Source of the DNA: Castellaniella denitrificans
GTDB lineage: Bacteria; Pseudomonadota; Gammaproteobacteria; Burkholderiales; Burkholderiaceae_B
Assembly: GCF_027214045.1 (NCBI RefSeq)
Contig: NZ_JAPWHE010000002.1
Span: forward strand, 62,001 to 126,000
Reading direction: 5' to 3'
DNA length: 64,000 nucleotides
Below, piece by piece: positions 43,038 to 46,910 of the stretch. The notes below the pieces were generated by a model. That model had not been told where the DNA came from. It saw only the letters and a program-made list of their open reading frames with translations, and did not search any database. Positions within the stretch are counted from its first letter, which is position 1. Every line of letters begins with the position of its first letter. The translations under genes were made by a program, and so were the position numbers.

Positions 43038-44924
43038 TCACAGTGCGTCGCGAATCTGGTCGAGCGCGCCCGGATCCTCGATCGTCGTCAGGTCGCCCGG
43101 ATCGCGGCCTTCGCACAGCGCCACGATGGCCCGGCGCAGCACCTTGCCCGAGCGCGTCTTGGGCAGGCTGTTGACGAACAGGATGCGCGCAGGGCGGGCC
43201 ACGGCGCCGTTGCGCTGCTCGATCACGCGCTTGATCTCGGCTTCGAGGCGGTCGCGGGCGCCGGACTCGTCCAGCACGGCCGGGTTGCGCAGCACGGCGA
43301 AGGCCATGGCTTCCTGGCCCTTGAGTTGATCCGCCACCCCCACCACGGCCGACTCCGCCACGGCCGGGTGCGTGTTGACCGATTCCTCGATTTCGCGTGT
43401 GCCCAGACGATGGCCGGCGACGTTGATCACATCGTCGGTGCGGCCCAGGATGTACCAGTAGCCATCGTCGTCCACCAGCCCCCAGTCCGAGGTCGAATAG
43501 CAGAGGCGTCCGGGAAACGACTGGAAATAGGTGCGCACGAAGCGTTCGTCGTTGCCCCAGATCGTGCTCATCGCGCCCGGCGGCAACGGCGGCTCGATCG
43601 CCACCACGCCCTTCTGGTTCGGACCGCAATCCTGGCCGGTGGCCTCGTCGATCACCCGGGCGTCATAGCCGTAGACCGGAAAGGACGGACTGCCGAAGCG
43701 GGTCGGGACTTCCTCGACCCCGGGCTGGGCCGACAGGATGGGCCAGCCGGTCTCGGTCTGCCAGTAATTGTCGATCACCGGCTTGCCCAGGGCTTCGGAC
43801 AGCCACTGGCCGGTCAGTTCGTCGAGCGGCTCGCCCGCCAGATAGATGCGGTCCAGGCTGGACAGATCGTGACGGTGCAGCAAGGCCGGATCGTGCTTCT
43901 TCAGGACGCGGATCGCCGTCGGCGCGGAGAACAGCGCATTGACGCGATAGGTCTCGATGATGCGCCAGAGAATGGCGGCGTCGGGGCGCACCGGTGTGCC
44001 TTCGTACATGACGGTGGCCTGACCGTTGAGCAGCGGCCCGTAGACCACGTAGGAATGCCCCACCACCCAGCCCACATCGCTGCTGGAAAAGTACACGTCG
44101 CCTGGCTTGCCGCCGTAAATGTATTCCATCGACGCGCACAGGGCCACCGCGTAGCCGCCGACGTCGCGCTGAACGCCCTTGGGGTTGCCGGTCGTCCCCG
44201 AGGTGTACAGGATATAGCTGGGCTCGTTGGATTCCAGCCAGACGACCGGCACCAGGGCGTCCAGGTGCCGCGCCCGCAGGGGCGCATAGTCCAGGTCGCG
44301 GCCCGCCGTCAGGTCCATGGGCGCCAGGCCGCGGTTCACCAGCACGACGCGTTCCGGCGCATGGGACGACTGGGCGATCGCCTGGTCCAGCAGCGGCTTG
44401 TAGGCGATCGGCCGGCCGCCGCGCGAGCCCGCGTCGGTGGATACGATCACCCGGGGCTGGGCGTCGTCGATGCGCTGCGCCAGATTGTGTGCGGCAAAGC
44501 CGCCGAACACCACGGAATGGATGGCCCCGAGCCGGGCGCACGCCAGCATGAAGAAGGCGGCCTGGGGAATCATGGGCAGATAGATCAGCACGCGGTCGCC
44601 CTGGACGACCCCGAGTTCCTGCAAAGTGGCGGCGGCTGCGTTGACCTCGCGCGAGAGGTCGGCGCGGGTATAGACGATTTCCTGATCGACCTCCGTGGAC
44701 ACCCAGATCAGTGCGGGCTGGTCTCCTTGCGTGTCGAGCCAGCGGTCGACGGCGTTGTAACAAAGATTGGTCTTCCCGCCGACGAACCAGCGCGCGAACG
44801 GCGGGCGGGAATAGTCCAGAACCTGCGTGAAGGGGGTCTCCCAGTGGATGCGCTGGGCTTCGTGCGCCCAGAAGGCCTCCCGGTCCTGGATCGACTGGCG
44901 ATGGAACTCGCGGACTTTCTGCAT
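43038..44924 (-). CDS. prpE: Propionyl-CoA synthetase
   Basis: A 628-residue AMP-forming acyl-CoA synthetase. It has SYILYTSGTTGNPKGVQRDVGGYAVAL, NYWQTETGWPI, DWGLVDDDGYWYILGRTDDVINVAGHRLGTREIEESV and PKTRSGKVLRRAI, the same order as Acs. The RDVGGYAVALCASMEYIYGGKPGDVYFSSSDVGWVVGHSY region and the opening EAQRIHWETPFTQVLDYSRPPFARWFVGGKTNLCYNAVDRW match PrpE rather than Acs. It activates propionate; no prpBCD genes are present, so the 2-methylcitrate cycle would be encoded elsewhere. Confidence 0.92.
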   Translation of the reverse strand: MQKVREFHRQSIQDREAFWAHEAQRIHWETPFTQVLDYSRPPFARWFVGGKTNLCYNAVDRWLDTQGDQPALIWVSTEVDQEIVYTRADLSREVNAAAATLQELGVVQGDRVLIYLPMIPQAAFFMLACARLGAIHSVVFGGFAAHNLAQRIDDAQPRVIVSTDAGSRGGRPIAYKPLLDQAIAQSSHAPERVVLVNRGLAPMDLTAGRDLDYAPLRARHLDALVPVVWLESNEPSYILYTSGTTGNPKGVQRDVGGYAVALCASMEYIYGGKPGDVYFSSSDVGWVVGHSYVVYGPLLNGQATVMYEGTPVRPDAAILWRIIETYRVNALFSAPTAIRVLKKHDPALLHRHDLSSLDRIYLAGEPLDELTGQWLSEALGKPVIDNYWQTETGWPILSAQPGVEEVPTRFGSPSFPVYGYDARVIDEATGQDCGPNQKGVVAIEPPLPPGAMSTIWGNDERFVRTYFQSFPGRLCYSTSDWGLVDDDGYWYILGRTDDVINVAGHRLGTREIEESVNTHPAVAESAVVGVADQLKGQEAMAFAVLRNPAVLDESGARDRLEAEIKRVIEQRNGAVARPARILFVNSLPKTRSGKVLRRAIVALCEGRDPGDLTTIEDPGALDQIRDAL

Positions 44925-45328
44925 GGGTTCGTCTCCGGTGCCACCCTGCGGCCCGGACCGGGCCGTGGGTGTTTCTAAGGAAGTGGAATGGGTGACATGC
45001 TACACCCTGGCCGACCATACAACGACAGTCTGACACGAGCCTGACGAGCCGGTCCGTGAGCCCCGCGCCTGCCGGCCGCGCGCAGGCTTGGCGGATTCGC
45101 CGGCATGGCCGCTTTACTGAATACGAACGATCCACTACACTCGAAGAGTTGTCCGCAGGGCGGGCAACTCACAAGATCAACCCGGCGTCCGGTATCCGGC
45201 CAGCCTGCGACCCGTGTTGCGCCCGAGCGCCGCGGCCACGCCAGGCGGTCGCGGACGACGACATCCGCCGCCATCCGCCCATGCCACCGCCTCATTCCCT
45301 CCCGGTACAGCCGAATCAGCCACGTCTT
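44925..45328. other. 404-bp divergent intergenic region (prpE / NlpC-P60 lipoprotein)
   Basis: No gene is assigned here. On the plus strand it holds a promoter candidate (TTTACT 45113-45118, TACACT 45136-45141) followed at once by a 10-bp hairpin (45146-45170) and about 160 nt of leader. An in-frame extension of the lipoprotein frame covers the right half, but its starts lack ribosome-binding sites and would spoil the signal peptide. No clear prpE promoter was found on the minus strand. Confidence 0.5.
45113..45141 (+). promoter_or_regulatory. Candidate promoter of the NlpC/P60 lipoprotein gene
   Basis: TTTACT (45113-45118) and TACACT (45136-45141) with a 17-bp spacer. Each hexamer matches the sigma70 consensus at four positions. 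The predicted start site falls at the base of the hairpin at 45146-45170. Confidence 0.45.
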
Positions 45329-46174
45329 ATGGCGGCCCGTTCCCTGAAACTGCTGTTGTGCGCGGGCCTCGTGGCGCTGGCCGGATGCGCAGCCCAGACC
45401 CGCAAGACGGCCGACGCCGAGCTCACCTCCAATCACCTGCTGCGCGACAGTTATCTGCTCAGCACCCAATCCGATCCGCTGGGCGCCTGGCTCGACAACA
45501 AACGCAGCCTGGCCATCGACTACCCTGGATCGGAAACGTACGGCGCCAGCCAGGCGCCCAAGACCCTGGTGTCCACCGCGATGAAATTCCTCGGGGTCAA
45601 GTATCGCTACGGGGGCGACGCCCCTGGCGAAGGCTTCGACTGCAGTGGCCTGGTCGCCTACGCGGCCGAAAAATCCCTGGGCTTGAAACTGCCCCGGCGA
45701 GCGCGAGAACAGGCTGAACTGGGCATTTCCGTGGATCGCGACGAACTGCGCCGGGGCGACCTGGTGTTCTTCAACACCCTGGGCCACCGGTTCTCGCACG
45801 TCGGCATCTACCTGGGCGACCACAAATTCGTGCACGCACCGCGCACCGGCGCCAACGTCCGGGTTGAAAGCATGGATGTGGCCTATTGGCGCAAACGCTA
45901 CAATGGCGCCCGGCGCCTCCAGGCGCGCGTCGATACCGGTCAGCCCATGTCCGCCGGCCCCTCGGCCGGCCAGCATACGGACGCCAAGCCCTCGGCCGCC
46001 AAACCTGCGGCCACCGGGCGCACGACAGCCAAACACACCGGCGCCAAACACGCAACTGTCAAACACACGACCACCAAACGCGTGACCGTCAAACGCGTGA
46101 CCGCCAAGCCTGTGTCGGCCAAACCCGCGACAACAAAACGCGCGACGACCAAACGCGTGGCAGCCCGACCCTGA
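45329..46174 (+). CDS. NlpC/P60 peptidoglycan endopeptidase lipoprotein with lysine-rich histone-like tail
   Basis: A 281-residue lipoprotein, from the ATG at 45329: MAARSLKLLLCAGLVALAGC is a textbook signal with lipobox LAGC (Cys20). Residues 85-200 form an NlpC/P60 cysteine peptidase domain: GVKYRYGGDAPGEGFDCSGLVAYA (nucleophile Cys), DLVFFNTLGHRFSHVGIYLGDHKFVHAPR (His). Such enzymes cut D-Glu-mDAP links in peptidoglycan stems. Residues 206-281 are a repetitive tail of AKP, TKR, VKH and TAK units resembling bacterial histone-H1-like proteins; the basic repeats may bind anionic wall or LPS. An earlier ATG (45281) is possible but lacks a ribosome-binding site. Confidence 0.85.
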   Translation: MAARSLKLLLCAGLVALAGCAAQTRKTADAELTSNHLLRDSYLLSTQSDPLGAWLDNKRSLAIDYPGSETYGASQAPKTLVSTAMKFLGVKYRYGGDAPGEGFDCSGLVAYAAEKSLGLKLPRRAREQAELGISVDRDELRRGDLVFFNTLGHRFSHVGIYLGDHKFVHAPRTGANVRVESMDVAYWRKRYNGARRLQARVDTGQPMSAGPSAGQHTDAKPSAAKPAATGRTTAKHTGAKHATVKHTTTKRVTVKRVTAKPVSAKPATTKRATTKRVAARP

Positions 46175-46193
46175 GCCGGCCGCACTCGAAATG

Positions 46194-46224
46194 AAGCCCG
46201 GAACCGCAAAGTTCCGGGCTTTTT
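46194..46224 (+). terminator. Intrinsic terminator of the NlpC/P60 gene
   Basis: An 11-bp stem AAGCCCGGAAC/GTTCCGGGCTT (46194-46204 with 46211-46221), loop CGCAAA, ending in TTTTT. It is 19 bp after the stop codon. Confidence 0.92.
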
Positions 46225-46257: not shown

Positions 46258-46665
46258 CTATATCCCCAGGGTCAGCCCGCCCGGCGAGCCGCGCCGCTTG
46301 CACGACATGCGCGTCTCCGGGCGCGCGGCATCGTTCGCCCTCAGCGGGCATGCTTTACAGTAGCCGCACTGATCCAGCGCCTGCTGCATGCTGCACACCG
46401 ACCGCCGGCATGCCAGCACGCGAATGCCGGCGCGCTGCGCCGCCAGGCGGAACGTCTTCATCACGTTGTGCCCCAGGAAATCCGTCAGCAGGATGACCAG
46501 GTCCGTGCCGGAAGGCAGTGCGGGCGTCTTCTTCTGATGTGCGGAATCGCGGCCGCTGATGTGGTGGCGGATGGCGATATTATGGTCGCGCAGCAGATCC
46601 GGGATGTTGCCCAGCCGGTCCGCGCCGACGATCAATGCACTGACTTGGGGTTGTGGTTGCGCCAT
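46258..46665 (-). CDS. DUF2325 family protein, cysteine-rich, Fur-box controlled
   Basis: A 135-residue DUF2325-type protein, start ATG at 46665 (CAGGAGT upstream). Residues 8-80 have the family's Rossmann-like start (SALIVGADRLGNIPDLLRDHNI) and DLVILLTDFLGHNVMKTFRLAAQRAGI. The C-terminal third holds six cysteines (86, 91, 100, 103, 106, 122), including CGYCKAC, which could bind iron-sulfur or zinc. The upstream region has a 17/19 match to the Fur consensus at 46717-46735, so iron-dependent repression is likely. Function is unknown; a role in iron limitation is inferred from the operator only. Confidence 0.82.
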   Translation of the reverse strand: MAQPQPQVSALIVGADRLGNIPDLLRDHNIAIRHHISGRDSAHQKKTPALPSGTDLVILLTDFLGHNVMKTFRLAAQRAGIRVLACRRSVCSMQQALDQCGYCKACPLRANDAARPETRMSCKRRGSPGGLTLGI

Positions 46666-46716
46666 CGATGGACTCCTGGAGATAGGTCGGTGGTGATCAC
46701 CAATTTTAATACGATG

Positions 46717-46735
46717 GCTAATGATAATCATTACC
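46717..46735. promoter_or_regulatory. Fur box
   Basis: GCTAATGATAATCATTACC matches 17 of 19 positions of the classical Fur consensus GATAATGATAATCATTATC (differences at positions 2 and 18). It lies 52 bp upstream of the DUF2325 start codon, over the likely -35 region of that leftward gene, and 175 bp upstream of the rightward binding-protein gene. Confidence 0.85.
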
Positions 46736-46910
46736 ATTAACAAGCGCAATCCAATCGGATGGATGGCGCGCCGCCACGCCTCCGTATTTACCCTGTCCCC
46801 TGCGTCGCGCGCCAGGCAGATTCAGCCGGTCGTCAATTTCCGTTCAGAATGTTGTTACCGGAGGCGGCGCACAATTTCCGCAGAACAATCTTTCCCAGCG
46901 GAGACACACC

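Follow-up and report, generated by a model that had tools for sequence, protein, structure and literature searches.

We identified in Castellaniella denitrificans a MepS/Spr-like NlpC/P60 lipoprotein whose catalytic domain is followed by a basic, repetitive C-terminal tail; tails of this type recur on enzymes of this kind in several families of Burkholderiales. The gene is located in the window, the stretch of 64,000 nucleotides analyzed here (contig NZ_JAPWHE010000002.1, positions 62,001 to 126,000), which belongs to a genome of 3.10 Mb. Because the charge of the tail is conserved while its sequence drifts, and because it recurs on one enzyme, the best fit to the data is a tail that would act as a non-specific electrostatic tether to peptidoglycan, a reading to which we assign a probability of about 0.42.

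The first-pass annotation had described the gene as a frame of 281 residues at 45329-46174. This frame is open, but the conserved start is most likely ATG 45281, 48 bases further upstream (Table 1), since an ATG-MPP start at this place (MPPPHS... in the window) is kept in 9/9 orthologues of the genus, while two of them, G003 and G002, have no ATG, GTG or TTG where the second ATG of the window stands. As a hairpin and a T run follow 3' of the stop codon, the gene probably stands alone. A terminator-like hairpin is likewise found 3' of the gene in G003, and no promoters were found in the DNA scan.

Table 1. Features of the lipoprotein gene and its surroundings; positions are those of the window.
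Feature	Position	Strand	Basis or remark
Full CDS of the tailed MepS/Spr-like NlpC/P60 lipoprotein	45281..46174	+	297 residues plus stop; frame open
Predicted lipoprotein signal peptide, 35 residues, ends ...LAG ahead of the lipobox Cys	45281..45385	+	lipobox-like [LV][AV][AG]C in 9/9 genus orthologues
Cys of the lipobox, putatively lipidated; next residue Ala	45386..45388	+	sequence
Linker of 55 residues between lipobox Cys and domain (net charge -2)	45389..45553	+	tail/linker survey; low pLDDT
NlpC/P60 catalytic domain with Cys121, His173, His185 (297-residue numbering)	45554..45916	+	Pfam, invariance (n=50), model, MepS fold match
Basic extension past the domain (85 residues, net charge +16), disordered by prediction	45917..46171	+	composition, model
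Degenerate 15-bp repeats (pentapeptide xxK[HRP]x)	45959..46157	+	Tandem Repeats Finder, G000-G003 alignment, K/R spacing
Hairpin then T run, terminator-like	46193..46222	+	-23.7 kcal/mol, z -4.16; absent from a simple scan
Acyl-CoA synthetase, neighbour	43041-44924	opposite to gene	
DUF2325 protein, neighbour	46261-46749	-	convergent with gene
Branched-chain-amino-acid-type transporter, neighbour	from 46911		

The assignment as an NlpC/P60 lipoprotein was borne out. Residues 89-196 of the 281-residue frame match NLPC_P60 (Pfam PF00877) with 107.5 bits against a cut-off of 23, and a lipobox, LAGC, is present; the protein is a putative outer-membrane lipoprotein. C121, H173 and H185 (297-residue numbering), which we take to be the residues with a catalytic role in MepS, are invariant among 50 aligned sequences. 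The nearest solved sequences are those of E. coli Spr/MepS (2k1g, E 9.8e-28; 8xud, E 1.6e-27), and the structure model, with a pLDDT of 94-98 across the domain, has the papain-like NlpC/P60 fold, its best Foldseek matches being 7v6t and the MepS chains in 8xup/8xud (TMt 0.74-0.87 against MepS-type chains among the top ten matches). The MepS/Spr equivalog NF008096 (NCBIfam) scored 105.2 bits, below its cut-off of 186, and we therefore name the protein MepS-like rather than MepS. With E. coli MepS (Spr), a murein DD-endopeptidase / LD-carboxypeptidase lipoprotein, it has in common the lipobox, a disordered N-terminal linker and an NlpC/P60 domain that ends in RYN(E/G)ARR. Whereas E. coli MepS stops about 5 residues past ARR (RYNEARRVLSRS; PMC5686067, excerpt), the Castellaniella protein continues with a basic tail of 85 residues. 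The data support a MepS/Spr-like lipoprotein that would be exported and lipid-anchored, and a predicted peptidoglycan hydrolase.

The tail itself had been placed at residues 206-281. Its character as a lysine-rich repeat holds, but the extension already starts at residue 197, directly behind the NGARR that ends the domain (residue 196 of 281), and its first 20 or so residues are not repetitive. The last 85 residues contain 11 K, 7 R and 4 H against 2 D/E; K/R pairs are most frequent five residues apart (12 pairs), and Tandem Repeats Finder reports 15-bp and 30-bp periods inside the repeat interval, with 65-77% matches. In the structure model, whose alignment held few tailed rows, the tail has a pLDDT of about 47-57 and no secondary structure, and is thus predicted to be disordered over its 85 residues. 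The proposed likeness to histone H1 applies to composition and not to family membership, as evidenced by scores of 19.3 bits against a cut-off of 40 for Histone H1-like HC2 (Pfam PF07382; E 0.0013) and 17.6 against 80 for the Burkholderiales H1-like model NF038053 (NCBIfam hist_H1_lk_Burk). No other comparable tail was found in the same genome, where the next protein matches had E values of 0.144 and 0.175. The idea that the tail was copied from an H1-like gene of its own genome was rejected on the first of these values and on the next DNA match, which spans 27 bp with E 0.0039.

Within the genus the orthologue is present in 9/10 genomes, and G005 has a second NlpC/P60 protein only. Counted after NGARR, the tail comprises 85 residues (net +16) in the genome of the window, G000, 87 (+15) in G003, 74 (+10) in G002 and 98 (+15) in G004, 33 residues (+6) in G008, and 14, 10, 10 and 8 residues in G007, G006, G001 and G009, so that four of the nine carry a long basic tail, one an intermediate form, and four stop 8-14 residues past the domain. 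The notion that all orthologues might be tail-less with a conserved stop is hence half true, and because four of nine are tail-less the tail is not essential to the enzyme. The whole protein including the tail aligns without a stop at 89% identity to G003 and 77% to G002. Length variation of the repeats, suggested in the first-pass annotation, is found as in-frame gaps of 15 bp (one pentad) and 21 bp between G000 and G003, that is, between species only. Compared across lineages, the K/R spacing is 5 in G000, G003 and G002, 6 in G004 and 4 in G060; the difference between 5 and the 6 of G004 implies that the repeat was rebuilt on at least one occasion. At 10/10 loci the second NlpC/P60 protein of the genus ends 4 residues past the domain, and the tail is confined to one homologue in the genus.

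Substitution in the tail is far less constrained than in the domain, with dN/dS values of about 0.62 vs 0.035 for G000-G003, 0.56 vs 0.11 for G000-G002 and 0.82 vs 0.18 for G003-G002. When the same substitutions were placed at random along the tail, the mean number of basic sites that stayed basic was 15.7 for G000-G003 and 9.6 for G000-G002, compared to observed values of 19/20 (P 0.035) and 16/20 (P 0.0025). Retention exceeded the null in all four comparisons (P 0.035, 0.0025, 0.032 and 0.014), which are not independent and rest on a protein-guided alignment that favours matches at basic sites and so helps this result. Total amino-acid change was below the null in one of the four (P 0.049; P 0.37-0.40 in the other three), and for net charge no comparison gave a significant excess over the null (P 0.06-0.33). 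We take this as weak evidence that charge may be under selection in a tail that otherwise evolves near neutrality.

To place these tails in a wider context we surveyed 229 best-matching homologues from 227 genomes, two of which contributed two rows each; some rows may be the second homologue, and one locus (G291) was left out as no closed frame was scored. By an alignment-based count, tail length was below 30 residues in 173 sequences, 30-49 in 13 and at least 50 in 43, and 40 of these 43 had a net charge of +5 or higher, the remaining three having -2, -1 and 0. The distribution over families is uneven, with tailed members in 12/12 cases in f4, 12/13 in f27, 5/5 in f51 and 3/3 in f21, in 8/139 in f1 (the 139 sequences opened; 230 of the 268 genomes searched had a match), and in 0/57 across fifteen further families. 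Note that the order-wide query included the tail and is biased toward tailed proteins, and that the values for f51 and f21 rest on this query. With a tail-free query, the domain alone, tails were present at 30/30 loci opened in f4, where all 43 genomes matched, and at 27/30 loci opened in f27 (31 genomes), the three misses having 6, 6 and 37 residues. A quick tree of the domain, about 120 residues long, requires at least 9 changes of tail state, also with branches below 80 or 90 support collapsed, compared to about 37 for shuffled labels; these counts do not separate gain from loss.

The tails differ considerably in their make-up. In all 30 f4 tails opened (L363-L392), two cysteines flank a basic stretch of 18 residues, for example CRKVTTGKGKKKKTVTVC, and likely form a disulfide loop in the periplasm; one member's tail is identical to that of Chitinibacter tainanensis (L051) over the part compared. 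Many f27 tails (L402-L431) have a CRKGRKC-like mini-loop, some of them twice (L416, L420, L425), and in L414 and L422 a 6-residue tail is found instead. In L238 (G496), an enzyme of this kind too, the tail has 373 residues with a tandemly repeated unit containing CPPPKKGLSAKQRKQAEAEC. In genus g30, L141 and L143 have tails that are rich in His besides K/R, alike in two species and unlike the Castellaniella tails in composition, and L170 (G035) has a Thr/Ser/Lys-rich tail of 134 residues, the other 27 g27 sequences opened being tail-less.

Positive charge in a new C-terminus may arise from stop loss alone where the DNA is GC-rich. In the window, non-coding reading frames of more than 150 residues are often Arg-rich with an equally high C-terminal charge, which counts against charge alone as a signal. 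N-terminal linkers of at least 50 residues, taken from the 145/229 sequences with a lipobox pattern, reached +5 or more in 0/80 cases and were negative in 60/80, but were judged the wrong null for new C-termini. We used the 240 bases past the stop instead, in three frames and 172 short-tailed genomes (516 frames). This null has a net charge of 0.096 per residue and a K/(K+R) of 0.237, compared to 0.725 in the 40 tails. A net charge of 0.12 per residue together with K >= R was found in 32/43 tails of at least 50 residues and in 7/516 null frames. Readthrough into GC-rich DNA could thus account for part of the basicity, but the lysine richness is beyond what it gives. The Castellaniella tails are less clear in this respect, with a K/(K+R) of 0.46-0.61; two of the four satisfy K >= R, and the other two fall narrowly short (6 K : 7 R and 10 K : 11 R).

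For the confinement and switching of cross-link-cutting enzymes in Gram-negative bacteria, NlpI and Prc of E. coli are the best-studied case. There, MepS alone is described as inactive on sacculi and as slightly activated by NlpI on muropeptides (PMC7049810, excerpt). NlpI binds the disordered N-terminus of MepS (PMC11211486, excerpt), and the C-terminus is recognised by Prc: according to the consulted part of PMC5686067, the C-terminal peptide RYNEARRVLSRS inhibits degradation by NlpI-Prc, and a model places LSRS in the PDZ domain of Prc. The Castellaniella tail begins right past RYNGARR, the position at which the C-terminus of E. coli MepS is offered to Prc. Among 17 genomes, 16 including G000 have a CTP family protease above the TIGR00225 cut-off, the exception being the tail-less G009 (genome 92% complete). 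An E. coli NlpI query, run without a positive control, gave weak, short TPR-like matches in 17/17 genomes, the best with E 3.0e-8 (G419) and that in G000 with E 3.5e-4, and no clear NlpI.

In our preferred reading, the protein consists of a lipid anchor, predicted to sit in the outer membrane, a flexible, acidic-to-neutral linker, the NlpC/P60 domain, which would cleave cross-link peptides of peptidoglycan, and the polycationic tail, predicted to be disordered. The latter would hold the enzyme on the anionic sacculus via peptide carboxylates, perhaps also via inner-leaflet phospholipids, and would thereby concentrate it on its substrate, against which E. coli MepS has little activity unless the adaptor NlpI is present. 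With charge and flexibility kept but not sequence, the repeat would be free to drift and change length, and as a side effect the C-terminus read by a Prc-type protease would be replaced. The domain is basic by itself, however, with a mean net charge of +6.0 in the 40 tailed proteins and +7.0 in the 189 others, so that the tail fills no obvious charge gap, which argues against a tether. LPS and teichoic-like polymers had also been considered as ligands. LPS lies in the outer leaflet, and is therefore an unlikely partner for a lipoprotein that would face the periplasm, and teichoic-like polymers are, to our knowledge, not expected in the Gram-negative Castellaniella; more plausible ligands are anionic phospholipids or the carboxylates of peptidoglycan.

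The main non-functional rival holds that the tail is mostly neutral, having arisen when a stop was lost and repeats then expanded in GC-rich DNA; an exposed C-terminus would tolerate this, and the tail would have no selected function in Castellaniella. The patchy distribution in the genus (four long, one intermediate, four short; n=9), the tail dN/dS of 0.56-0.82 in three pairs and the slippage-like 15-bp repeats all fit this model, and at 0.096 per residue a readthrough of 50-90 residues would reach about +5 to +9 unaided. It does not readily explain, however, why charge and lysine together single out 32/43 tails but 7/516 null frames, why K/(K+R) is 0.725 instead of 0.237 (although of the four Castellaniella tails two pass and two just miss), or why basic sites are retained beyond the null, and tails at 30/30 loci in f4 and 27/30 in f27 are hard to call neutral. 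We consider this explanation rather unlikely. The simpler artefact, a frameshift in assembly or annotation, has the low complexity of the tail alone in its favour and is refuted: frame and tail are the same in the separate genomes G003 and G002, the gaps are multiples of three, and the terminator-like hairpin past the stop is common to G003.

Turnover control is the main functional rival. Here the tail would alter capture of the C-terminus by a CTP-family periplasmic protease (Prc/CtpA) and so lengthen or tune the lifetime of the enzyme, for which the inhibition of NlpI-Prc by the E. coli RYNEARRVLSRS peptide (PMC5686067, excerpt), the position of the tail right after the homologous RYNGARR and the protease in 16/17 genomes, G000 included, all speak. 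Yet the protease occurs in tailed and tail-less genomes alike, the tail-less G009 is also the one without a match above the cut-off (92% complete), a degron switch needs few residues rather than 70-100 lysine-rich ones, and degradation might just as well start more easily on a long disordered tail; we consider turnover control unlikely. A third option, very improbable in our view, is binding of a polyanion off the wall, be it extracellular DNA, heparin-like glycans or LPS. Composition and pentad repeats resemble chlamydial Hc2 (PMC2848022, excerpt), with the weak HC2 match of E 0.0013, and the repeats of mycobacterial HBHA are reported to bind heparin (PMC3293801, excerpt). Both the HC2 and the H1-like models nevertheless stay far under their cut-offs, and such a lipoprotein is expected to face the periplasm. 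We also know of no obvious host glycan in Castellaniella-type habitats.

Parallels to the tail exist in other systems. Chlamydia Hc2 and the histone H1-like proteins of Burkholderiales share with it K/A/T-rich pentad repeats of changing number, and the size of Hc2 is described to vary by lysine-rich pentamers, but these are cytoplasmic DNA-binding proteins and not exported lipoproteins (PMC2848022, excerpt). HBHA, an envelope protein, likewise ends in lysine-rich repeats (PMC3293801, excerpt), but it is a heparin-binding adhesin with an unrelated domain. In endolysins of Gram-negative phages a peptidoglycan hydrolase is combined with a charged C-terminal element (PMC11929351, excerpt). There, however, a soluble lytic enzyme ends in an amphipathic helix, in contrast to a tail predicted to be disordered on a lipid-anchored host enzyme. 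Lysine-rich repeat expansions also serve as localisation signals in exported Plasmodium proteins (PMC5207086, excerpt).

The kind of enzyme and the variable lysine-rich pentads, as in Hc2, are known, while the recurrent tail on a MepS-like enzyme is unreported; no literature on such tails was found in open PMC. Returning to the tether, a wider and rather doubtful extension would be that polycationic disordered C-terminal tails are a recurrent, adaptor-independent targeting module of Burkholderiales MepS-like endopeptidases, gained several times on one homologue, with selection acting on charge and not on sequence; some families would have developed it further into basic loops with paired cysteines. 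In the absence of a recognisable NlpI, such a tail would tie the enzyme to peptidoglycan while also removing a C-terminal degron. The occurrence of tailed and tail-less versions in a single genus, together with near-universal tails in some families, provides a natural test set for asking if charge by itself suffices to bring an enzyme of this kind to the wall or to determine how long it lasts.
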